This document shows positions 1 to 51,012 of a stretch of 64,000 nt of DNA, in pieces. Below the pieces are notes generated by a model. The model was given only the letters and a program-made list of their open reading frames with translations. It did not search any database and was not told the DNA's origin. Within the stretch, counting starts at the first letter, position 1. Each line of letters begins with the position of its first letter. The position numbers and the translations under genes were made by a program. The DNA lies in the NCBI RefSeq assembly GCF_000026945.1, contig NC_012864.1, forward strand, positions 496,001 through 560,000. The letters run 5' to 3'. This stretch comes from Candida dubliniensis CD36 (Eukaryota; Ascomycota; Pichiomycetes; Serinales; Debaryomycetaceae).

Positions 1-1813
1 CCTGAAGTCCTCCTCAAGCTGACTCAACTCTGTTTAGGTACTTCGAACCTATACAATATGTAAATAACAGTACAGAGAAACGTGTCTATCTAAAAGTTCT
101 TGCGTAAATTAAAACAAATTCATTTTGACTATTGTCAGTGCCAGCAACAACATATTGTAAAAATCATAAGTTAATCACGAGTTACCATACTATTTAGTTG
201 ACAAGTTCCTTTATTCCGAGAACATTGCTGACATAAAGAAATGCCTATAGCATCCGTTTTCATACCGCAACGACACCTCGAATTTTACTCATTTGTTATA
301 GCATATTCTCTTTTGCACTATCAATCAATTTTCAACCGATACCTCAAAATACTGCTAATAACAGATTGAAGACAATTTGATCACACCATCATTTTGTCCC
401 GAGAATTTGAAAAAGAATATAATTATCAACTTACCAATTCTAGTCCTGTCATTTCAAAGTACCAAACAAAGAATAGCAGCACAAAGAATAAGCATAAATT
501 TGACATTGTCTCACAAGGCAATTGCACCAAAAATCAAATAACGAACTGCAAGAGTACTCCCATATCAAATCTGTAACCGAATCATCAGGATTTATTAGAA
601 CTACCCGATGCAATTACACTAACAAATAGAATTCTTTCCTGACTCAAAACTTATACACTACGAAGCTGTGAGACTTCTCACAGAATCTCAAATTTTAGTA
701 CTTTTCTCCAAAAGTTTTTACACAATAGAAACAAAATATACTCAATTTATCAAAAAATAGCTTATATAAACTTTTTTCTAATTCAATTTTTTCCATTTAC
801 CATGACACAATCTATATTGTCTCTATTCAAGAAACCACACTTAAATACAAACATCATCATGTATCTTCTGCGTAGAATAGACGCATTCATGTTGAACATA
901 ACATGAGCTCCAGTACCAACGAAAACGACTTCCTCATTATCTTAACAACATTTTACCTTAACAGTTAAAAACTTAAACAAAATAAATATCAAACTAATGC
1001 ATGGTACAAACTCCTGTATTAAACATGGTTTCTCGACTACATTGGCAGTTTTCAAATGCAGAAGTGTAAAGGGAGTCGTAAGCTTCTTGAGTAATCATTT
1101 GGACAAACAAAGCCACCGCTAATATCACGTCTACACATATGACAGGGAGCTTCTAACAAGCACACTCTCCCGAGCCATACTAGGGGCCATTAGATAAACG
1201 TATACACACAGTGCATTTACTTAAGCAACGGTTAAATCTCATTTCAAGAAGATATGCTTGGGTAGGTCAGATACATTTTCTGACAGAGTAGATTTCAATT
1301 CTTCCCAGGATCCGATCGACATAAATTCGATTTCTCAGTGTTTGATTGCAATCCATTATCCAAGAACTTATTTTATTGACTAACCCTTTTCTCTCAGGAA
1401 TATGTGCGTTAACATATATAGATTGCCCTGATTATTGACTTTAATAACTTGAACAAGAATGCCTTACTTATCATTTGATGATATTATACTGCAATCATTA
1501 GTCCTAAACCCATGAAAGTTTTATTGAAAATAGAGCTTGTCCCTGCAATCTGGTTAAGTCTTCTATTTATAGAGTCGTGATAACTCTGAGGCTATTATAA
1601 TGTGTTACATAATTTTGATCCAATTTAATGATTCTACTTGGGACTAATTGGAATAAAGATTGTTTGGTGAATCTGGAATAGCATTTCACTTCAAGTAAAT
1701 TAGAGAATATTTGGAATAGTTCTCTGGTAGTCTTAATAATTGTAGACAAGCAATCTGAGAACATTAAATGGTAGTAGCAGAACTAACTAACTTTTGAAGA
1801 AAATCACGTTCCC

Positions 1814-1830
1814 GAGCTGCTCTTTGGATG
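1814..1830 (+). repeat. Imperfect 17-nt direct repeat, copy 1 (copy 2 at 2805-2821)
   Basis: GAGCTGCTCTTTGGATG here recurs as GAGCTGCTCTATGGATG at 2805-2821, 16 of 17 bases identical. Both copies lie in the G/T-rich half of the putative centromere core. One such pair may be chance; no function is claimed. Confidence 0.5.
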
Positions 1831-2804
1831 TAAGGCGAAAGCCAGGTTACGTACATGGTATCCACATTCTAAATGGAAAATGAGTGACTACAAGGAAATT
1901 CAATTCATAAGATCATTCGCAGATACTATTACGATATTGGTTTCTGTATTGACGAGCTGACAACGCGTGGAAAGTTTTTCATCATGCTGGCTTGTAGGTG
2001 TCGTTGAATCTGCAAATCTAAACGTGTGGAACAGCAGGAAATACAAAATTGGTTTTAGTTGCATTGTATATTTTAATATGAATTGTATGGTGATCCCGTT
2101 TAGAGTAGTACGAAAGTTTTTGAAGACCTGTTATGTGTTCATCCAGTTGTCTATAGGCTCACTTTTGTTCTCATGTTGGATGGTGGTCTCTCAAGTCGCT
2201 CATTAAAGGCATATATGTATGATAATTGGTTCCACAAGGCAGCTGAAACACTTAACAAAACACCTTCTTTACACAAGTGAGTTACTTACGTAAGGTAGGA
2301 GTTTGTAGTAATCTAGTTTGTATAGCTTTTGGTGTATTTGCATAGATCTCGAGGAGAGGCTTCTCACTAGAACATGTTGTCAGTGGAGCAATCTGTTAGG
2401 TGTTTAAATTTTTTGCAGTGGAGTAAGTTCTTATTACTATCTTTACGGTGAGGTTGTATAAATCACCTTTCGGCTTAGCAGAACCTAATCGCCATGCTTG
2501 TCCTTAATATATGTGTTGATGTGGTATTACGTGTGCATATCAGTGTAAGGATAGATATTTGCGTGTAGTTTAGAAGGTGTAAGAGGTCACATTTTGCATA
2601 ATATCAAGTTGTGTTTAGTGTTTGGGATGATTTTGTTGGAGGTAGAAGCATATTTGAAGAGTGCAGTATTAAGCTTAGATTTAAAATTTGTGTTTATGAG
2701 GCGGATTTGAGTTTCATAGATTCCAAGGGCCCGTTGGATTGTTGTAATAATTGGTTGTGGGTTTTATTTGTATCTCGTTAATTGGGCGTGAAGAATATGG
2801 TTTT

Positions 2805-2821
2805 GAGCTGCTCTATGGATG
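2805..2821 (+). repeat. Imperfect 17-nt direct repeat, copy 2 (copy 1 at 1814-1830)
   Basis: Second copy of the GAGCTGCTCT-W-TGGATG element, 991 bases downstream of the first and in the same orientation. Confidence 0.5.
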
Positions 2822-4482
2822 AATCAGTAGGAGGTGTTTGGGCGATAACTGATTTATTTGGTTGTAGATGGAAAAGGCAATTATAATTATCGGTATGTCG
2901 TTTTCTTTGGAGCAATTGTTGATGGTAAGATGTTGTTGTCATCGCTGGGATAGTTTAGAGGCATGACTGTGGAAGACATGAAGATTGTGGTGTGAGGTGT
3001 GGCAGAGGAATGTTTAGCATATTGATGTAAACTCGTTTGTCAGCGAGTAGTTAAAATAGGGTGCAAGAAATACTATGGTATTGCTGGGATAGAGAGGTAA
3101 TAAAACAGATATTATGCAAATAAAAAGAGGTAGGGAGATGAGGGGTGATTGAGGTAATAGCTGAAGCTTCGGGAGTGTTTCAAAGGTGTATCTTTTTTGA
3201 GACGAAGTGAAAAGAAGCGAAGATATGTTTGATGAATACTTGTACACGAGAAGCTAGGATTCAAATGGTCTGTTTAGCAAATGAGTGTGATGCGTGACTC
3301 AATAGTATCAGCTGGGGCAAATTTTGTAAGGGAGAGGCCATTGACAAGAGTAATGCTTGTTTATTACTCAATGTGGTGAATCACACAGTCTGGTGTAGCT
3401 CATTTAACTGAACGAAAGCATGAGCAGACTCAACATGCAGAGAATTTGCACACGAGGAACATCGCTGGGCTTGTCGGATTTGATTTAGGTGTGATGAGTC
3501 AACCTTTAATTGAGAGAATACAGTTAATTCAGTTAGTTTTGATGGTTGAGTTGTTGCAGCTATCTCAAAATTCATCCAAATACCAGCCAAAGAGAGAATG
3601 AGATGGAATTAGCAGCCTAGCTTTAAGACAGACCTGTAGTGATCTACGATCTCGTTTTGTCTGAAATACACATTTTTTGCTTCTCAGCTGTGTAAGCGAC
3701 GTATTTTAGAAGGTTCTGTTAAGTCACTGTTTGCATTGACAGATTGGTTGTTAATCTGGTCAGAGACTTTTACTTACTATTGTGTGTTTTGGATAAGACT
3801 ACGAAATTGGTTTGTTCCGCTATTGCGGTGTCTTCTTCTCAGCATAAGTGGCATAGTAGTGATAGGAGCGAAGAACAATATTTCAAGCTTAATTGTGAGA
3901 TGGTATCAAAGTTGTATAGTATTTTCGTAATAATTTTGTAAATTTTTTATGGGTAAAAAATTCCTCAGCCACCTCTACTTTTCTGGAGAAATTAACTTAC
4001 TATATGATCTTAATATTAAGTCTAAGACATTCTATCCAGTCTTTAGTGTTACTCTAAGGGAAACCTTCGTTGTGACAAACTCTTCAAACGTGAAAAACCT
4101 CGAGACGTAACGTTTCGCAATAAATTGAGCCAGACTACACTTTTGTGCTACAGAAGACGCAAAAGCACCAGCTGGTGCATGTTGCCCTAAATGATTGTAG
4201 CATCCGCCCACATTGGGACCCTCAATTGTTGCCAAAAAAATTGGTCTCTGGTGTTATTGCGGATAACGAAGGTGGGGATACTTGATCTGAAGATGTTTAG
4301 AGAGTACAGTAATTCACAATTTAATCATATTTCATCCTCACTTCATCGAGAAATTCCCGATTTGCCGTGCAGCGCTTAAATTAATTGCTACTTCTATCCG
4401 ATACCACAAGCAAAATAGCAACCATAAATAAATTGCCCCGCGGTTGACAGTACACATCTTCGAGGAATGGCAACCTTGGCCA

Positions 4483-4505
4483 CCCCTCCCAAAAAACACT
4501 ATAAA
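4483..4505 (+). promoter_or_regulatory. Stress element (CCCCT) and TATA box of the HSP12-like gene
   Basis: CCCCT, the reverse complement of the AGGGG stress response element core bound by Msn2/4-type factors, lies at 4483-4487. TATAAA follows at 4500-4505, 87 bases before the ATG. This is a typical layout for a stress-induced HSP12 promoter. A single CCCCT is short and could be chance. Confidence 0.5.
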
Positions 4506-4591
4506 TTGAGTCAATTCCCCTGGTGAAGGGAGATTCTTTGACTACTGTTTCTTTTCAACAAATACCATAACTCCCATAGAAAACTGGAAAA

Positions 4592-4975
4592 ATGTCTGAC
4601 GCTGGAAGAAAAAACATTTCTACTAAAATCAATGAAGCTATAACCCCTGACTCTAACAAGTCTACTTTGGAAAAGGGCAAGGAACAAGTCACAAGTACCA
4701 TTGACAAAGCTGTCGGCTCAAACGTGCCAGATAACCAAAAGTCTTTTACTCAAACAGTTGCAGACAATGTGCAAAAAGGTGCCGATAATGCCAAAGCTGA
4801 TTTGAAAAAGCAATCGGAACAGGCAGAAGGGGAAACCAAAACCCTTGCTGAGACAGCTCAAGAATATGTTGAAGTTGCCAAAACTGAAATTGGAAAAGCT
4901 GCTGAATACGTGAGTGGAGTTGTCACCGGTGCTACAGAAGGTGCTAAAACCGGCGCTGATAGTACAAAAAAATAA
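4592..4975 (+). CDS. HSP12: Hsp12-family small heat shock / membrane-stabilising protein
   Basis: This 127-residue, highly charged, lysine- and glutamate-rich protein starts MSDAGRKNISTKINEAITPD, the hallmark of the Hsp12/Wh11-like family. Members are intrinsically disordered in solution and fold into amphipathic helices on membranes during stress. Alternating charged and alanine-rich stretches (AKADLKKQSEQAEGE; YVEVAKTEIGKAAEYV) fit such helices. It is somewhat longer than the roughly 109-residue S. cerevisiae protein. The ATG is preceded by a TATA box and a CCCCT stress element. It is the first gene beside the gene-free region 1-3955 and converges on RIX7. C. albicans has two HSP12-like copies that I recall lying in inverted orientation around CEN5; this would be one arm. 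Confidence 0.9.
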   Translation: MSDAGRKNISTKINEAITPDSNKSTLEKGKEQVTSTIDKAVGSNVPDNQKSFTQTVADNVQKGADNAKADLKKQSEQAEGETKTLAETAQEYVEVAKTEIGKAAEYVSGVVTGATEGAKTGADSTKK

Positions 4976-5426
4976 AACTACATAGTGTCGTACACTCAGC
5001 TATCCAGTGAGTTAATATAATATCTAATAAGTAGATAAAGAGAATATAAAACTTAACGTAATTACAAATTTTCAGAACTGCTTGACATATGGTATCCGGA
5101 CGTTGTATATGTTTTTCAAAACAGAGGACTTATCTATCTTGTTGGTATAGAAACCAGGTCCTGAAAGCTGAGGTGTTCAGATTGGTTGAACACGCATTCA
5201 TTCCGTGCTTTATTTTGGTAGATATAATGAGAAATATCCAGCAAAAGTCCATGCAGAAACTTCTGCCCAGTTTAGCATCTAGATTAAGATTTGTAATGGA
5301 AGGTAAATTTGATACAAATATCAGGTATGTCAACAAGTCTATTATTTTAGTTAAACAGGTAACACTAATTACAGCAAATACTATTAATATATAATACACA
5401 AGAATATGAACAGTTGAATGTAAGAC
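4976..5426. other. Convergent intergenic region, HSP12-like to RIX7
   Basis: The 3' flanks of two converging genes. Overlapping frames of 101 codons (plus) and 89 codons (minus) occur, but neither resembles a protein family and they overlap antiparallel. It could belong to a pericentric inverted repeat arm if one exists outside the window. Confidence 0.4.
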
Positions 5427-7919
5427 TTAATCCTTTTTTTCAGCTGTACTACCAACATCATCTGGCTCCTTGTCAGCGATTATGTTCCAGCCCAACTTTT
5501 TGTTTAGCTTTTCATAGCGCAATCTATCTCTGTCACTGACACTAGGCCTGATGGAAGAAAGAGCATGGTCAAAATCTTCAGCAGTAATAGAAATGTCGTC
5601 TCCACCTATCGAGTCTTCATAAAATCCAGAACTATCCAATTCCTGTATTTTTTGGTTTTGGAAAAACCTCTTTTTCAAAGCCCATACCCCTGCTTCTTTC
5701 ACCAATGAAAACAAGTCTGCACCAGAGAAGTTACCACACCTGGGGTCTCTTGCAATTGCGTTCAAATCGACATTTTCGTTCAATGGACTATTGTTGGTGC
5801 GCACCAAAGTTTTCAAAATTTCCAATCTCTCTTCAGGAGTGGGTAATTCAATGTATAGAGTCTTATCAAGTCTACCCGGTCTTAGCATTGCGGGATCAAT
5901 CATATCTGGTCTGTTGGTGGCCCCTATGACAAATACACCTTTTCTATCATTCAACCCATCCAATTCTGTTAATAAAGTATTAACAACTCTAGAGCTTGAC
6001 TCTGACATCGACGTATCTCTGCGAGGAACCAACGCATCCAACTCATCAAAGAAAATAATACACGGTGTAGAGGCTCGAGCTCTTTGAAAAACCTGTCTTA
6101 CTGCTTTTTCAGACTCCCCAACATATTTGTTCAATAATTCCGGTCCTTTTATCGAAATAAAGTTTGCACGGGATTCGTTAGCAACAGCTTTAGCCAACAA
6201 TGTTTTCCCACAACCTGGAGGTCCCCACATCAAAACACCAGCTGGAGCAGCAATACCAACCTTCAAATACAACTCAGGCTTTTTGATTGGCTGTACTATA
6301 CACATATGCAATTCCATTCTGATCTTGAAAAGCGCACCCACGTTTTGCCATGTGACATCTGGAATTGTTGCAAACCCTTCTCTTTTGGCACTGGGTTGGA
6401 CGCTAGGAAGGGCATTCACAAAATCTTGATATTTGATAGCCAAAGGTGTCAACTGTTCTTGATTTAATGGGTCTGGGTGCATGTTTAAAAACTTTTTAAT
6501 GGTTGACAACTTCTCAGCTTCCGATTTTTTCTCGAATTTTTTTATCATGTCTTCTTTACTTGCATCTAAATTTACTGGATCAACATCCATGGAATCATCC
6601 TTGGCCAGATGTGTTTCTTCTTGCAATTCGCTCATTGTTTCAAAAATTCGTTTAATTGCAGTTATACCTGCTGCAGTGACTAGGCTCTTGAGATCTGCAC
6701 CAACATAACCCGGAGTCAATTTGGAGAGTTCTCTATAGTTGAAATACTCGCCATTTTCGAGTTTGATATTTTTCGTCATCGCTTTGAGAATAGAGATTCT
6801 CTGTTCTTCATTCGGCACATTCAAGCAAATTTCTCTGTCAAACCTGCCTGCTCGTCGAAGCGCTGAATCCAAGGAATCAGGCCTATTTGTTGCACCAATA
6901 ACAACAACAGGTTTACCACCGGTTTTTTCTAAAGTTAGCTCATCCATTAGGGTTAACAATTGTGCCACTATTCTCTTTTCCATTTCCCTCTGGGCGCCTC
7001 CATCTCGTTTCGGTGTAATGGCATCAATTTCGTCCATAAATATTAGACAAGGAGCAATCTGTTTGGCTTCTTCAAATATCTCTCTTAGCTTTTTCTCTGA
7101 TTCACCCGACATTCCTGAGACAACAGAGGGCGCAGAAATATTAATGAATGGTACTTTCAACTCACCAGCCAAAGCATTGGCAATGGTTGTCTTACCGCAT
7201 CCCGGAGGACCGTACAAAAGTACACCTCTTGGGGGTTCTACTCCTGTAGAAGAGTATATCTCTGGATGCAAAATTGGGAGTCCAATGATTTCTAGCAACT
7301 GTGTTGTGACACTCTCCACCCCTCCTAAAGACGATAAATCTATATTAGGTGTCGAGTAGTCAATCTTTCTCTTTTGCTTTTTCAATTGGGTCCTTGCCAG
7401 ATCTTTGGCCTTTCTTTTGCTTCCCTTAAGTAGGTCTGCACTATCTGTTTGCTGACTCTCTTCATTGTTTGCGCCATCAGATTCACCCTCAGTCTTCTCC
7501 TGGTTCCATAAAGAAACGACAGACTTGTTTATAGCATTCAGGTCTTTGACCTCCATCAATTCATTCTCATTCTCTTTGTCATAGTCAACTTCCGATTCCT
7601 CGCCATTGCCATTCTCACGATTTCCAAACTCTTCGGCCTCATCCTGACGAATGACTTTTAGACTGGCTGCGATGGACTTTTCAAGGTAATTCTTTTTCAT
7701 TCTTTTCAACTGAAAATCTTTCATCTGTACGTAAGTCAACACCTGAGAAACAGTGAGATTGTGAGATGATGCCATGCAAGAAAATGGATCATGCTCTTCG
7801 TCTGTGGTAACTGTTCTCTTGTTTTCTTCTGTCTGTTCCTGGAGTAAATCATGGATCAAGTTGTAAATTTTTTGATCCAAAGATCCTGTAATAGATTTAC
7901 TCTTTGACATAGCCTTCAT
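5427..7919 (-). CDS. RIX7: Rix7, tandem AAA ATPase of 60S ribosome biogenesis
   Basis: About 830 residues with two AAA modules. The first has Walker A GPPGCGKTT and Walker B LIFMDEID; the second has GPPGCGKTL and IIFFDELD. Each has a downstream GATNRPD sensor and arginine-finger region (GRFD, GRLD). The second Walker A lies near base 6220. Rix7 (NVL2 in animals) is a nucleolar Cdc48-like hexamer that extracts Nsa1 from pre-60S particles. The N-terminal region has the family-type start SITGSLDQKIYNLI, an acidic linker and a basic nuclear-localisation-like stretch (KRKAKDLARTQLKKQKRK). The frame is open back to 8063, but that codon is GTG. The first ATG is at 7919 (a second at 7910), and the stretch upstream contains a 14-T run, so I start at 7919. 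Confidence 0.93.
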   Translation of the reverse strand: MKAMSKSKSITGSLDQKIYNLIHDLLQEQTEENKRTVTTDEEHDPFSCMASSHNLTVSQVLTYVQMKDFQLKRMKKNYLEKSIAASLKVIRQDEAEEFGNRENGNGEESEVDYDKENENELMEVKDLNAINKSVVSLWNQEKTEGESDGANNEESQQTDSADLLKGSKRKAKDLARTQLKKQKRKIDYSTPNIDLSSLGGVESVTTQLLEIIGLPILHPEIYSSTGVEPPRGVLLYGPPGCGKTTIANALAGELKVPFINISAPSVVSGMSGESEKKLREIFEEAKQIAPCLIFMDEIDAITPKRDGGAQREMEKRIVAQLLTLMDELTLEKTGGKPVVVIGATNRPDSLDSALRRAGRFDREICLNVPNEEQRISILKAMTKNIKLENGEYFNYRELSKLTPGYVGADLKSLVTAAGITAIKRIFETMSELQEETHLAKDDSMDVDPVNLDASKEDMIKKFEKKSEAEKLSTIKKFLNMHPDPLNQEQLTPLAIKYQDFVNALPSVQPSAKREGFATIPDVTWQNVGALFKIRMELHMCIVQPIKKPELYLKVGIAAPAGVLMWGPPGCGKTLLAKAVANESRANFISIKGPELLNKYVGESEKAVRQVFQRARASTPCIIFFDELDALVPRRDTSMSESSSRVVNTLLTELDGLNDRKGVFVIGATNRPDMIDPAMLRPGRLDKTLYIELPTPEERLEILKTLVRTNNSPLNENVDLNAIARDPRCGNFSGADLFSLVKEAGVWALKKRFFQNQKIQELDSSGFYEDSIGGDDISITAEDFDHALSSIRPSVSDRDRLRYEKLNKKLGWNIIADKEPDDVGSTAEKKD

Positions 7920-8331
7920 ATATGTAAGCCTTTGAACGCTGTCTGGGTCACTGGTTCTTAAATCCTTCACTTCGTGGTTTTTCCTTTTGTCACTGGTATT
8001 TTTTTTTTTTTTCAAATTTGTCTCTTCTCTCTTCGCAGGTTCCCGATCCTCGCAGATTTTCACGATTTAGATATGAACACAAAAGCAAAGTTGAACTGCA
8101 ATCTTAGGAGAACAACACTAGACAACGATAGGCACAGGACTATTAAAGGTACAAATGACCATCTTTTCTGAAGTAATTTCTATGTGTATACTCATATCAG
8201 TACGACTGATTTGATTAAGAGAGCAACAAAGAAGACATACTATACTTAAAGCACAACATACTTATGAGACATCGTAATCTTGCTTTCGTTATCTTGGCTA
8301 TATAACTAGGTACATAATAAAGTCTGCCAGC
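7920..8331. other. RIX7 5' region and 3' flank of the split-barrel gene
   Basis: About 410 bases between two minus-strand genes. It holds a 14-T run at 7999-8012 (A14 in the RIX7 sense direction, probably leader) and otherwise nothing recognisable. Confidence 0.4.
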
Positions 8332-9091: not shown

Positions 9092-10774
9092 CTACAACCT
9101 AACAAATCTTTTGAACGCATGCTTGTCTTCTATGAAGTTGTTCAACTCATCGAGCGTGATATCTACCAACACCATTTGGTTTTCCTCTATAATCAAGTTT
9201 TTGTTGATATGGTAGCTGTAGGTGTTAGATTGAGCTTCAACAGTATCACCTTTAGGGTCCAATAATATCCCTAATTTGTACAACGTGCCCCAACTATTTA
9301 GCGACACCTTTCGGGATAAAACTCTTCTATCCACTTTGATGCTTGCCGCAATTCTGTTGTCTAAAGAGGCCGAACTGACAATTGCGTTACCAGTATTGAA
9401 GTCTTTGACCATCTCCTGATATTCTGTGTAGGCCAAGTTAAAATTTATAGTTTGAATTTCAAATTTCTCTATCCATCTTACACCAGCAATGACCAAAAGC
9501 AATTCTAAATCTGATAATGAAGTCACCAAATCCTGCACCCCGTTGCTACCGGCGCTGCGTAATTTGAAGTAGTCCTCCTCAATGTATGCATGATGTGCAG
9601 ATAGCTTTGAAACTGGAACTCTACAAGCATTGTTGAACTTTCGATAATCTTTTACGGAGTGATAATTCCGAACAACCATGTTTCTAAGAAGGCTGTTCTT
9701 TTTACAGTACAATTGCTCAATATGCTCATTCCACAGAAGCCCATATTCTGGATTTTTCAATGTATTAATAGTGGAATCTTGCAACAAAAGTGATGCCTTG
9801 CAGTTATCCCAGAAGTTGTCTAATGAAGTTTCATGAACCAAAGAAATCACCCTTTGAGAAAATCTGCTACTAACTCTCTTCTCCAACGTTTCCTTCGTGG
9901 TAATTTTTGTCGTTAGACCCACAACACATATTGGAGTGGCGCTACTCTGCGAGATATCTAGCAAATTGTACAACAAGGTCTGTCTGTTGTCAACCGTGAA
10001 CTTTTCAAATTCATCAATTACAAAAACCAACGGCATCCTTTCATCCCGCTCCCCTTTATGGCTAGTCAATACACTTAATATATTGGAAAAAGTGTCATTT
10101 ATTGACTTTTTTTCAAAACTTGCATACCCGATCTTCTCATTTGTTAATCCCATCGGTTCAGAACCATCGTCACCAACGTCTTTCTTCACGTTGATATCCA
10201 ACTGTCTTGCTATTTCTCGAAGAGCGGAACTATCATCTGTTTGAACTGAGGAATTCAAATATATAGAAATAAACTCACCGTTGTAATTGCGGTCTAACTC
10301 TTTCAAGGCACTCTTGACAATCGTTGTTTTTCCACTAGATCTAGGCCCCACCATTAAAACCGAATGGCTTTCCTTGTCTCTGATAGTTCGTTCAAATATT
10401 GAATAAATCTCAGTATATTTTTCAGATACAGATGGAGTTGATGAAAATATTTCAAAATTTCCATTTAGTTGATCAAGCAATTGGGTTTTCACAATTTCAA
10501 TATCATCTTCTGAGGTTTCTGGTAGGGGTTTGGCAAGATCAGTGGCAATTTTGGAATATCCAGTTTTATTTAAGGGGTCGTCTGGACTTGTATCCACACC
10601 ACTACTACCAGCCACCACCGATACTTTTTTGCTTCTTTTATTAGTAACATACAGATTCAGAGAATTTGTTGCTAACTCCCCCAGCTCTTCATTATCTATT
10701 TTCCGTTTAGGCAAATATCTAATCGATCGAAATTCGCCTTCAAAATCATCCTCCAAATGGTCTTGTGAACTCAT
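9092..10774 (-). CDS. ORC4: Origin recognition complex subunit 4
   Basis: A 560-residue AAA+ protein. Walker A GPRSSGKTT is at about residues 143-151 and Walker B LVFVIDEFEKF at about 249-259. An Orc4-like sensor region follows (PICVVGLTTKITTKETLEKR ... SRFSQRVISLVH), then a C-terminal winged-helix-like part. Orc4 sits in the ORC hexamer that marks replication origins and loads MCM. The basic N terminus (YLPKRKIDNEELG) is variable in the family. The frame continues to 10849, but that codon is TTG, so the ATG at 10774 is used. It is divergent from SST2 across about 600 bases. Confidence 0.93.
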   Translation of the reverse strand: MSSQDHLEDDFEGEFRSIRYLPKRKIDNEELGELATNSLNLYVTNKRSKKVSVVAGSSGVDTSPDDPLNKTGYSKIATDLAKPLPETSEDDIEIVKTQLLDQLNGNFEIFSSTPSVSEKYTEIYSIFERTIRDKESHSVLMVGPRSSGKTTIVKSALKELDRNYNGEFISIYLNSSVQTDDSSALREIARQLDINVKKDVGDDGSEPMGLTNEKIGYASFEKKSINDTFSNILSVLTSHKGERDERMPLVFVIDEFEKFTVDNRQTLLYNLLDISQSSATPICVVGLTTKITTKETLEKRVSSRFSQRVISLVHETSLDNFWDNCKASLLLQDSTINTLKNPEYGLLWNEHIEQLYCKKNSLLRNMVVRNYHSVKDYRKFNNACRVPVSKLSAHHAYIEEDYFKLRSAGSNGVQDLVTSLSDLELLLVIAGVRWIEKFEIQTINFNLAYTEYQEMVKDFNTGNAIVSSASLDNRIAASIKVDRRVLSRKVSLNSWGTLYKLGILLDPKGDTVEAQSNTYSYHINKNLIIEENQMVLVDITLDELNNFIEDKHAFKRFVRL

Positions 10775-11376: not shown

Positions 11377-13389
11377 ATGTCCCAGAGTAATATGGAGTTA
11401 AACGATGAGTCACAAAAACGTACGAAAAAACTGATCTTGTCTGCCTCGTTATCCTCAAGGAGGGAAAAGTCCCAAGGGTTGATTACGGAGTTGGGATGTT
11501 CCCCATCAAAGATTTCTGTTTTACATGAAGCAACCCATCATAAGTTTAGTCGAACTAGCAGTGGTAGGATTTTTGAAAAAGATATAAAAGATATATTCTC
11601 ATTGTTGGTTATATCACTCAGGTTGGAAAGAGATGGTTCAACCAATTACTTGTTCAATTCTCCGCCTATAATCAAGTTTCACAAACCGCTAAGGAAAAAC
11701 TACCCATATTCTTTTAGTTTAGAATCAGCTATTGAGAAAATGAAAGATTTACAACTAGACATTGAACTGGTTAATACAGTTACCTGTATTTCATACAGCT
11801 TTAATTCAGAAGTAAGCTTAGCGTTGATTGAGCTGTTTTACAAAGGTAGATTGTTGCATTCTCCTGCTGATAGAACAAGAGGAAAACCTAAGTCCAATGT
11901 AGCTTTACAACCAACCCCCAAAGGAATAGCTATTGTCCAAGAATTTTGTGAAAGAATTGGTATGGAGAGGGAAGCATTTCCTGAAGTTCTATTGTCGCAT
12001 GATTTCAATACTATGGAATTGTTCAACTTTGATAGAGATTCTAGAAGCGACAGTATTCTCTATTCAGAATATTTACTTTATCTATTGTTTAATATAATGA
12101 TGGGGCCGGAACCAAATGTATGGACCCCTTCAAACACACAGGACGCATTGCCAAGTTGGAATTTTTCAGACACTGAAAGCTTTGATAAACTATACGAGGT
12201 ATTTAGCAATTCTAAAGACACCAAGAATGTGAAGGGAAACAACAAAAACGCTTCGGAATTTGAGGGATTCAACTTTGGAGACTATCAGTATATCTCGAAA
12301 GCACGTCAAAGCTCAGAAATACATTCGTTTACTGATCACAGAGAAATAGCAAGCAGCCCATTTCACCACAGATATTTTACTAATCCAGAATCAGATGCTC
12401 ATTCGCAATATTACGTGTCTTCTGTTGGTGTTCGGTTATTGAAAGACAAAATCGTTTTGGCTGCGCTGAATAAAAGCGTTACCGTTGACTATTGCATCAG
12501 TGGTAAGGCAGTATGTCAATGGATTCTAGATTGCACGGATATCATAAACCCCAACCATGCCATCGAACTAGCCCGATTACTTGTCAAACACAACTTAATC
12601 AAGCCAATTTCGTTGTCTGGCAATCACAGTTTCTCCAGAGATGCCTATTATCAATTGTCAACCTTGGGTCTAGCACTATCTCTGTGGGACTTTCTGGAAA
12701 GGAATTTACAGGACAGCTCTTGTTTTCAAACTGGAACCAAAATATTACGACTAACTAACAATGCTACATTGGAGAATATTTTGAATGATCCGGGAATGCG
12801 CCTACAGTTTCGGAAACATTTGATTAAAGATCATTGTGCTGAAAATTTAGAAGCATATATTCAACTAACACAATTTGAAGAAAAGTACAAAGCTTGGGAG
12901 AATTTGAGTGATATCATCGACAACCAAAATCACAGCTGTAAGCCAGTAAGTTGCTCGGATGTAAACAGACGATTAAAGAATTTACAAACTACCTGTATGT
13001 CTTTTGCCTTTCAAATTTTCCACACTTATTTGAGTATCGATTCTCCCAAGATTGTGAATATTGATTTCAGACTAAGATCGAAGATTACAACATTAATGAT
13101 CGGGGATTCAGGAGCAAAAGTCAATGGTGATAACGAGTCGATAATTTTTTTAAAAACTCCTACTGAAGATTTTGCTTTGGGGTCGTCAGTGTTGGAAGAA
13201 ACAGCAGATTCTGCTTCGAGATCTCATGTCGATGGAAAACTTTTGGCACCAGATAACAGTTTTAGAAAGATTGCAAATCTGTTGCTACAAATCAAGTTTC
13301 AAATTTACCACCTTATGAAAGTCGATTCTATCCCAAAGTTTTTGGAAACATTAGGTATAACAAGCAACAAGAGAATCACTACCTTTTAG
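11377..13389 (+). CDS. SST2: Sst2, DEP/RGS regulator of G-protein signalling
   Basis: A 670-residue protein. The N-terminal part contains a DEP-type fold. A clear second DEP domain lies near residues 350-430 (VRLLKDKIVLAALNKSVTVD ... AVCQWILDCTDIINPNHAIE). The C-terminal RGS domain starts at about residue 465 (LENILNDPGMRLQFRKHLIK, then CAENLEAYIQLTQFEEKY) and is interrupted by family-typical inserts. Sst2 binds the pheromone receptor tail through DEP and speeds GTP hydrolysis by the Galpha subunit, desensitising cells to mating pheromone. Three TGAAACA elements upstream fit pheromone induction. The ATG is the first in frame and is followed by a lysine-rich start. Confidence 0.92.
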   Translation: MSQSNMELNDESQKRTKKLILSASLSSRREKSQGLITELGCSPSKISVLHEATHHKFSRTSSGRIFEKDIKDIFSLLVISLRLERDGSTNYLFNSPPIIKFHKPLRKNYPYSFSLESAIEKMKDLQLDIELVNTVTCISYSFNSEVSLALIELFYKGRLLHSPADRTRGKPKSNVALQPTPKGIAIVQEFCERIGMEREAFPEVLLSHDFNTMELFNFDRDSRSDSILYSEYLLYLLFNIMMGPEPNVWTPSNTQDALPSWNFSDTESFDKLYEVFSNSKDTKNVKGNNKNASEFEGFNFGDYQYISKARQSSEIHSFTDHREIASSPFHHRYFTNPESDAHSQYYVSSVGVRLLKDKIVLAALNKSVTVDYCISGKAVCQWILDCTDIINPNHAIELARLLVKHNLIKPISLSGNHSFSRDAYYQLSTLGLALSLWDFLERNLQDSSCFQTGTKILRLTNNATLENILNDPGMRLQFRKHLIKDHCAENLEAYIQLTQFEEKYKAWENLSDIIDNQNHSCKPVSCSDVNRRLKNLQTTCMSFAFQIFHTYLSIDSPKIVNIDFRLRSKITTLMIGDSGAKVNGDNESIIFLKTPTEDFALGSSVLEETADSASRSHVDGKLLAPDNSFRKIANLLLQIKFQIYHLMKVDSIPKFLETLGITSNKRITTF

Positions 13390-47433: not shown

Positions 47434-50400
47434 TCATTGTTCTGATTCACTCATCTTCTTCAATCGGGCAATTTTCACTAATGGACTTAACGAAGATACA
47501 TCATCACATCCTGTAATAAATGCATCATGCAATAATTCGTCGGCATCAGCTCTCTTATTGAAATCAACTTGTAAACACCATGCCAAAAACTTTCTGATAT
47601 CATAACTCAAAGATTCTGGATCCTTCAATTTAGGAGTACCATTAGTAGCAATAAGATATAATGCTCTCAATGGAGTTTCATTCAAGTATGGTGGCTCACC
47701 TTCCAACATCTCTATGATCATAATTCCTAATGACCAAACATCAACTTTTGGACCATATTCTTTACGAGAAACAATTTCTGGAGCCATCCAATATGGAGTA
47801 CCAACCATAGTGATACGTTTCAGATTAATTTCATTGATTTGAGCACAGAATCCAAAATCAGTAATCTTAATGTTTCCATCCATGTTTAACAAAATGTTGT
47901 CAGATTTAATATCACGATGGATCACCCCTTTGGAATGCAAAAACTTCAATCCCTTTAAAGTTTCACGACATACAACTCCAATTTGGCCTTCTGTCATAAC
48001 ACTATGAGTAACTATATCTGTAAGTGAACCCCCTTCCATATATTCCATAATCACCCATAAATCGCCTTTCAAAAGATACGAATCAATAAAATTGACAATG
48101 TTGGGATGCAGACTACCTTTCATCACTAAGATTTCATTGATAATTAACTCCTTCTTTGGCTGTTGTTCTAAATTCATTTGCTTGATGGCAACGATATTTG
48201 ACCTGTCACGAATATCATGAGCAAGGAAAACTCCACCAGATGCACCTTGTCCAATCTTTACCAAATCAATATACAATTCATTTGGATCACCAGGATTACA
48301 AATTGTCTTCAATTTGGCAATAATCTGTAAGTTTTTCCGTTTCTTCTCTTCTCGTTTCTTTTGCGCAATCAATGCCGCTTGTTTGGCATCACGTCCACCA
48401 CCAGAACCAGTAGGTTGTTTCTTGTTTGGTATAGGTACTGGCGGGGCATTATTACTAGCACCAGCAGTACCTGTAGTAGCAGCATTGGTTCTCAACTCAG
48501 AAATATTTTGTTCAGCATTGTGCTGTTTATTCTTTTCTCGTAGTTTTTGTATTTCTTCAATTTCTCTAGCCTTCTTCTCACGTAGTTTCTGTTGGGCTTC
48601 TTGATACTTAGTTTGTTGAATTTCATAGATGTTAGTCGGTGCAGTCGCATCAGCTAATGCTTGCAGAGGAGCAGTACGTTGTTGAGGTATCTCAACATTT
48701 TGATCAGATAATATATTGGCCGGTGGAGGTGGTGGAGGAGGTGGTGGTGGTGGCGCTCTATGAGCTTTAAACTCATTTACTCTTTGCTTAGGTAAAGCGT
48801 TGTTCTCACCAAAAGCAGCACTTGATGGAATAGGGGCAGTCGTCGATCCATTTGTTGCTGGTCTCAATTGACTAGACAAAGACGCTGAATGGGACTTTGA
48901 TTTAGGAATTACTGGCAATGACGGTGGAGGAGGAGCAGGAGCGATATGGGTAAATTTATCCCCACTTTTTCTAGACCGCATTGATTTTAATGATTTCGAC
49001 GAGAGTGAACGAATCTTTATCTTATTTGGAGAAACTTCTTGATGTGATTTAGGGGTTGATGAACGAAGATCCGATTGTGAATCATTCCTTGGCAATGGTT
49101 GTGAAGAAGGTGTTCTGTGTGACCCACTCATAGCAGAAAGCGGTGTTGATGGTGGTTTAGGAGCTGGCCTGCTTGGAATAAATTGATTCTCTTGAATATG
49201 AGATGTTGGCGTCTTTGGTGTATATTGAACATTATCGTCATGTTGCAGCTGTTTACTATCCGTCTTTGGTACTGATTGAGATGGGGTACTTGTTTTCTGT
49301 TCAATGCTGCTTCTTTCAACGACCGATGAAGGTGGTGTACGATGTGGACTTGAAGGAGCACCACCGCCACTACTACTGCCACCTGGTGTTGCTGGTGGAG
49401 TATTTTCATTAGACCAACCACTTGAACTACTTTTATTATTGTCAAACTGAAACTTCTTAAATGCAGCGTCATCCGGATTCTCGCTTGTATCTTGATAAAA
49501 GGCCACTATATCCATCACTGCTTGTGGATGCTGTTGTTGTTCCTTCTTTGTAATACCACTGGCAGATAATAACCTTTCCCACTCTATTGGCAAACCCGTG
49601 TATGAACCATTATCATCAATGCCTACATGGGCAAGATGTTTGGCATTGAATGGGGTACTGATCTTGATATTGACTTCCTGAGAATGGCTATTCAGAGCTG
49701 AATTTGAAGAAGACGATGATGACGATGACTTGCTTTTCCCAAACATCGAGGAAAACACGCCTCGGACCTTACCTCCGCTTTTTCGTTTCTTGCCATTCTT
49801 GGGTGACAGGTTTGAATTTATGCCGACCCCCAAAGGCTCTAGCGATGATGAGCTAGTATTTGTCGCTTGTTGGTGAAACTTGTTGTGGTTAGGGATGACG
49901 GGAGTTATTGCTGCTGTTTGGTTATGCGCCGTTGATTTTGCTGTACCAGATCTCGAGTTTTTCACCACTGTCGAAGTTGATGTTCCCGAAGTATTTCTTG
50001 AAGTTCCACTAGTATTTTGTGATAATTGACGGGGCAGATCGTCAATATTTTCGTCATCTCGTGTTGGTATTCCTTGCAAGGTATCGTTTCTTAAAAGGTT
50101 TGGGGAATCTGTAGCACTACTTGAAGTGTCCGGTTCCAGATCCAATTCACTTTTAGTTAACAAATTATCTATATCAACTGGTGGTGCTGCTTGTGAAGGT
50201 TTCCCAGGGTCCAAAGTAGACTTGTAACTTGATAAATGAGAACCTCGAGTAGAAGTTGGATTTGACGGGATCTTATGCACAGAAGCCGATGAAGATATAT
50301 CCAGACTCATATCATGATATGACGATGTCTTTGAATTTGGAATCGGTGGCGGTCCACTGCGGGGTGCAGACAAGCTTGCATTTTCATTTTGGTGTTGTAA

Positions 50401-51012
50401 GGTCGATGGCACATCTTGAAAAGATTGTGTTTGTTCTTCCTCTATAACAGCTGGTGAAACGTTATTTGCATCCATTGCATTTATAGTACCAGGACTTTCA
50501 AGAGTACCAGGAGAATACGAATCTTTGCTGGTACGCTTATTTATTGATTTAGTTAGCTCAGTGTACTGTTTTTCATTGTCACTATCATCATTTTGGTGCA
50601 AACCTTTCACATTGAATGTACCTGGCATTCTAGGAGGCATTCCTTGTGTTTTTTCATCATCATCTTCATTTTGTTCCTTATCACTCTCGATGTGGTTGTT
50701 GCGTGATTGTTGTAAATCATCAACATCGCCAGATACAGATTTTGTAAACGCGTCATTAATTTCCCCTGTATCGACCCGATCTTGATCAAATTGTTTTATT
50801 TTCTCGTGCATTGGAGACCCTAAACTTAAAGAAGAAGTGTTGGCTGATGTAGTATTCATGACCTGAGTTGGGGGTGCTAGTGGTGTCGATCCAACTTCAG
50901 GTGCAGAAGATACCCTAGAACGAGGGTTTGATTCTGTATTGTGTGAATGGGAAGTCTTCCTTGGATCTGTTATAGACGTGGGTGTGGAATTATTCTCTGA
51001 AAGTATACTCAT
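47434..51012 (-). CDS. CST20: Cst20, PAK/Ste20-family protein kinase
   Basis: A 1192-residue PAK kinase. A CRIB/p21-binding domain is at about residues 451-478 ([20 protein letters not shown]). A proline-rich stretch ([12 protein letters not shown]) and a coiled coil ([20 protein letters not shown]) precede the kinase domain, which has a glycine loop at about 921 (GQGASGG), lysine 944, HRD aspartate 1034 and DFG at 1052. Cst20 is activated by Cdc42 and feeds the Cek1 MAPK cascade for mating and filamentation. CTG at 47821-47823 (residue 1064) sits at the invariant PAK serine of the activation loop, so CTG reads serine here. CTG at 48109-48111 (residue 968) and 49807-49809 (402) also fall where serine is expected. 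The long disordered N terminus is repeat-rich and differs from the C. albicans protein as I recall it. Confidence 0.96.

Follow-up and report, generated by a model that had tools for sequence, protein, structure and literature searches.

The first part of the window, by which we mean the whole 64,000-nucleotide stretch under analysis (C6:496001-560000, so that window position 1 is C6:496001), holds most of CEN5, a short regional centromere of Candida dubliniensis; we put the probability of this reading at roughly 0.95. The locus is laid out as a short gene-free core flanked by two mirror-image repeats, and the core, its arms, the pair of HSP12 genes that they carry, the strand skew, the single-copy status and the gene order can all be observed directly in the DNA (Table 1). 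The original prediction of a CEN5-like centromere is thereby supported on four counts, namely a single-copy gene-free core, inverted repeats bearing HSP12, a skew inversion, and CEN5 neighbours at their published spacing. Its expectation that the window contains most of the core also held, with 2,897 of 3,132 bp lying inside. Centromeres of this kind are already known and published, those of C. dubliniensis having been in print since 2008; what an analysis of sequence alone adds to the confirmation are the exact edges of the core, the arms and the skewed block.

Table 1. Features of the CEN5 locus, its right-hand neighbours and two control loci
Feature	Coordinates	Strand	Remarks
Centromere central core, 3,132 bp	C6:495766-498897	none	bounded by inverted-repeat arms
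Right 2,897 bp of core	window 1..2897	none	remaining 235 bp precede window position 1
Left repeat arm	C6:493636-495765	-	mirror copy of window 2898-5028
Right repeat arm	window 2898..5028	+	self-BLASTN of C6:486001-512000; own-genome search
HSP12 gene, left copy	C6:493692-494072	-	PF04119; faces away from core
HSP12 gene, right copy	window 4592..4975	+	PF04119, E 1.8e-25; faces away from core
Skew inversion zone	window 1252..1511	none	cumulative AT skew highest within the core at 1252 and cumulative GC skew lowest at 1511
Right end of G-rich skewed block	window 3953..3953	none	cumulative GC skew maximum
ATPase with two AAA modules	window 5427..7919	-	first gene beyond the repeat
ORC4, origin recognition complex subunit 4	window 9092..10774	-	PF14629, E 1.9e-49
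SST2, RGS protein	window 11377..13389	+	DEP + RGS; several relatives named SST2
CEN2 candidate gap, gene-free, 4.1 kb	G000:C3:1942441-1946588		~3 kb from RPL3; skew switch ~1,944,709
CEN7 candidate gap	G000:C8:425994-430156		beside TOM40-like gene

Core, repeat arms and neighbouring genes

The core between the arms is about 3.1 kb long and gene-free, as expected of a short regional centromere of C. albicans or C. dubliniensis. The prediction that this region has no plausible gene was borne out: the window's ORF list holds no ATG-initiated ORF of at least 100 aa (translation table 12) upstream of the HSP12 gene at 4592, and the longest ORF in the interval between the two HSP12 genes (C6:494073-500591, 6,519 bp) runs to 76 aa. 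Since dinucleotide shuffles of this interval had longest ORFs averaging 88 aa (5-95% range 63-119, n=200), its coding content is at the level of random DNA. Scans of the window against Rfam and for tRNAs (ARAGORN, bacterial code) returned no matches. Our gap and skew scans of this chromosome covered C6:296001-560000, that is, 264 of 1,246 kb, and among the ORF-free gaps there the HSP12-to-HSP12 interval ranked first of 117 by length at a cut-off of 80 aa, third of 103 at 100 aa and fourth of 96 at 120 aa; at 60 aa it fell outside the longest six of 151. Gene-free length was rejected as a test for a centromere, as gaps of similar length are present on the same chromosome.

The genome that we searched comprises 14,618,422 bases in 8 contigs, with C6 accounting for 1,245,899. 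A DNA search with window positions 1-4500 as query, which passes over very common words, matched only the query itself and the left arm; at this sensitivity the core is found nowhere else in the genome, and the repeat arm is found at the CEN5 locus only. Neither core nor arms matched the CEN2 and CEN7 loci, to which individual comparison was confined. The sole matches to these two loci were short and fell around window 7996-8026, outside both core and arms.

The two arms are 98.7% identical (2106/2133 alignment columns). The trait specific to CEN5, inverted repeats of about 2.2 kb unique to that centromere, is seen here in a right arm of 2,131 bp for which no further copy was found. An HSP12-like gene had been predicted beside the gene-free stretch and is confirmed by its Pfam match (Table 1), while three features were missed or lay outside what that reading could see: an inverted repeat of 2.13 kb that begins at 2898 and has its partner beyond the window, the second HSP12 gene, and the inversion of skew near 1250-1510. 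The proteins encoded by the two HSP12 genes are 100% identical over 127 aa, and their ORFs show no nucleotide difference. Elsewhere the arms differ unevenly: of the 28 differing columns, 18 fall in 2898-3700, 7 in 4241-4591 and 3 at the outer end, leaving 3701-4240 and the HSP12 ORF free of differences. The longest identical run spans 569 bases, for which a permutation test on 25 sites (adjacent sites merged) gives p 0.011. This pattern fits, and modestly suggests, patchy gene-conversion tracts, and perhaps change nearer the core is faster, alongside gene conversion in the arms. An identical pair of HSP12 genes at a centromere is in any case a handy marker of gene conversion there. A third HSP12-like ORF lies at G000:C3:1070945-1071124 (48% identity over residues 1-60), and a search of a phage collection with HSP12 gave no match, as expected.

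Beyond the right arm, the first gene encodes an ATPase with two AAA modules, which we take to be RIX7/NVL-like, followed by ORC4 and SST2. The relatives of this SST2 belong to the CUG clade and stood at 81% (a 408-member cluster), 54% (C. viswanathii) and 51% (C. maltosa) among 7,999 candidates scored; together with the CEN5 synteny they point to C. dubliniensis. In C. albicans, we assume orf19.4219 to be the AAA ATPase and orf19.4221 to be ORC4. The coding edge of the ATPase gene lies 399 bp from the repeat end at our locus, against the 397 bp (360 + 37) given for orf19.4219 to the right of the C. albicans CEN5 repeat (PMC2642679). In the same species, orf19.4221 is placed in a Chr5 neocentromere region (PMC5035033), SST2 is given as orf19.4222 (PMC2745568), and Chr5:466,581 is given as the position of a variant in HSP12 (orf19.3160; PMC9887641). 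The CEN5-like gene order named in the original prediction stands, with HSP12, the AAA ATPase at 399 bp, ORC4 and SST2 fitting the neighbours of C. albicans CEN5. The centromeres of C. albicans and C. dubliniensis are described as completely conserved in synteny (PMC2924309).

One coordinate needs revision. The right boundary of the core had been set at 3955, whereas the core ends at 2897 and positions 2898-5028 are repeat arm. Cumulative GC skew peaks at 3953, and the proposed edge is therefore the end of the skewed block, which lies 1.06 kb inside the right arm and is mirrored at C6:494701 because the arms mirror each other. The sharp change of base composition claimed for this edge is real as regards strand asymmetry, but G+C content itself shifts modestly, from 0.34 in 3801-4000 to 0.39-0.41 over the next three 200-base steps. 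At C. albicans CEN5, Cse4 is reported on the core and as absent from the repeats (PMC2642679, Ketel et al. 2009); if Cse4 behaves likewise here, window positions 2898-3955 would be pericentromere.

Strand asymmetry at CEN5 and two control loci

Within the core, GC skew flips from C-rich to G-rich from left to right, and AT skew flips the opposite way. The left half has G199/C339 and A566/T462, the right half G344/C213 and A447/T562 (Fisher p 2.4e-16 for G/C and 1.3e-6 for A/T), and the geometric centre of the core falls at about window position 1331. A switch from negative to positive GC skew inside the core, with the reverse in AT, is what characterises centromeres of this kind. It is described for all centromeres of C. 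albicans and C. dubliniensis (PMC2924309, Koren et al. 2010).

The strength of the switch can be gauged in several ways. Scored on the core only, as the weaker of the two sides, it reached 144, with 73 as the highest of 5,000 shuffles. Among 2,609 segments of 3,132 bp, coding DNA included, the core locus was the best at 151, followed by 116 for the next non-overlapping one (264 kb of 1,246 kb). The whole CEN5 gap scored 287 and ranked first of 56 gaps, a value raised by the mirror-image arms, whose antisymmetry is built in, so that the core-only 144 is the fair score. Over the same 264 kb, the locus was the top GC skew switch with 2-kb half-windows (0.651, SD 0.144; next 0.469) and again with 1.5-kb half-windows (0.573; next 0.494); with 1-kb half-windows it lay outside the eight strongest, and came fourth when AT skew was added.

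Two further centromeres served as controls. In C. albicans, CEN2 presumably adjoins RPL3 and CEN7 adjoins TOM40, and we located candidates for both genes by family search to predict CEN2 and CEN7 here. The CEN2 gap has the same skew switch as CEN5, scoring 177 (second of the 56 gaps, with the next at 77), and in its self-BLASTN no match exceeded 34 bases. The CEN7 gap, left out of the 56 ranked gaps because the ORF on its right extends past the end of the stretch, scored 80, above all 2,000 shuffles (maximum 69) and barely above the 77 of the best ordinary gap. As controls, CEN2 is thus strong and CEN7 weak. The CEN7 gap also contains a tandem array of ~69-bp units at L030:7379-7672 and a direct repeat whose diverged copies lie at L030:5062-5199 and 6453-6595, although obvious repeats are said to be lacking near C. 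albicans CEN7 (PMC4871872).

The polarity at CEN2 bears most directly on the alternative that survives best, in which the locus is the same and its skew stems from divergent transcription toward the HSP12 genes instead of from outward forks. We rate this as unlikely because the ORFs flanking CEN2 point inward (left plus, right minus), opposite to the HSP12 genes, and yet the polarity is unchanged. Moreover, GC skew at CEN5 stops at 3953, ahead of the HSP12 gene at 4592, and ORC is reported to bind CEN5 in C. albicans (PMC2924309). What lends the transcriptional account some weight is that switches of similar size are seen at ordinary loci on a scale of 1 kb, as at C6:544,408 in a kinase gene (window 47434-51012), and replication origins are therefore not the only source of skew. 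Divergent gene pairs were rejected as the source of other strong switches, as C6:544,408 lies within a gene.

Much less credible is an ordinary palindromic duplication of HSP12, with long shared upstream DNA and without centromere function. Gene-free gaps of 5-7 kb do occur elsewhere on the chromosome, and the skewed block does extend into the arms, toward the HSP12 genes. Against this, the unique core carries the skew switch by itself, the CEN2 gap has the same skew despite its lack of longer self-matches, and repeat length, spacing and neighbours all fit C. albicans CEN5. Just as improbable is a former centromere whose skew and repeats persist as a record after Cse4 has moved: sequence does record history and not present occupancy, and C. 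parapsilosis isolates are reported to differ in centromere position on 2/8 chromosomes (PMC7263194), but what speaks against it is that C. albicans and C. dubliniensis are described as sharing complete centromere synteny and showing the skew at every one of their centromeres (PMC2924309).

Fork direction and a possible working of the locus

With CEN5 as the preferred reading, work on C. albicans leads us to expect Cse4 binding, origin activity and early replication at this locus. Cse4 (CENP-A) nucleosomes would cover the unique 3.1-kb core and assemble a single kinetochore, at a site maintained epigenetically and specified by no sequence motif. An early-firing origin in the core, held in place by the kinetochore and ORC, could renew Cse4 in each S phase in a replication-coupled manner, and the constancy of this origin over evolutionary time may have left the strand asymmetry. 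The HSP12-bearing arms would be pericentromeric and kept alike by gene conversion. From the position of the skew inversion zone, we infer that window positions 1252..1511 mark a long-term replication origin. ORC4 happens to be encoded 6-8 kb from the edge of a core thought to be an early origin, and this closeness is probably a coincidence.

The direction of the skew bears on a disagreement between two C. albicans papers, one with forks starting in the core and the other with forks converging there. A replication bubble and ORC have been observed at C. albicans CEN5 (PMC2924309), whereas 2D gels of its core are reported to indicate fork termination and stalling, with origins on both sides (PMC3998917). 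The polarity at our locus, C-rich on the left and G-rich on the right, is what forks moving out of the core would leave. Converging forks alone predict the opposite polarity; averaged over the long term, the sequence favours an origin at the centre. A more specific proposal is that the skew records two-way forks from the core centre that reach ~1.06 kb into each arm and come to a sharp stop at 3953; we advance it tentatively, at somewhat less than even odds. If true, this stop would mark the end of an origin-linked mutational regime, outside the expected Cse4 domain.

Comparison with known centromeres

C. tropicalis centromeres offer a partial parallel, with a ~3-kb core between inverted repeats as at our locus. 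Their repeats are given as 3-4 kb and their sequences as highly alike (PMC7292649), whereas the arm of this locus is found nowhere else in the genome. We accordingly rejected a homogenised inverted-repeat centromere of the C. tropicalis type.

The closest counterpart is CEN5 of C. albicans, which likewise has inverted repeats (~2.2 kb) round a core, an HSP12 gene in this part of Chr5, the neighbouring genes and the skew inversion. In that species inverted repeats are listed at CEN1, 4, 5, 6 and R (PMC4871872), and the pericentric repeats of CEN5, at ~2.2 kb, are reported as the longest (PMC3998917, 2014), compared with 2.13 kb at our locus. Similarly, arms and core together measure 7.39 kb here, against a 7.6-kb C. 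albicans CEN5 deletion that spans the core and both repeats (PMC5035033, 2016). Core sequence is described as not conserved between the two species (PMC2924309), and one C. albicans homologue is reported to carry an LTR inside its CEN5 core (PMC2642679).

Within C. dubliniensis, a literature search by the name 'CdCEN5' found nothing, and the discovery of unique centromeres in this species is credited to Padmanabhan et al. 2008 (PMC7292649, Guin et al. 2020). The centromeres described there very probably include this very locus, with no known difference between the two.
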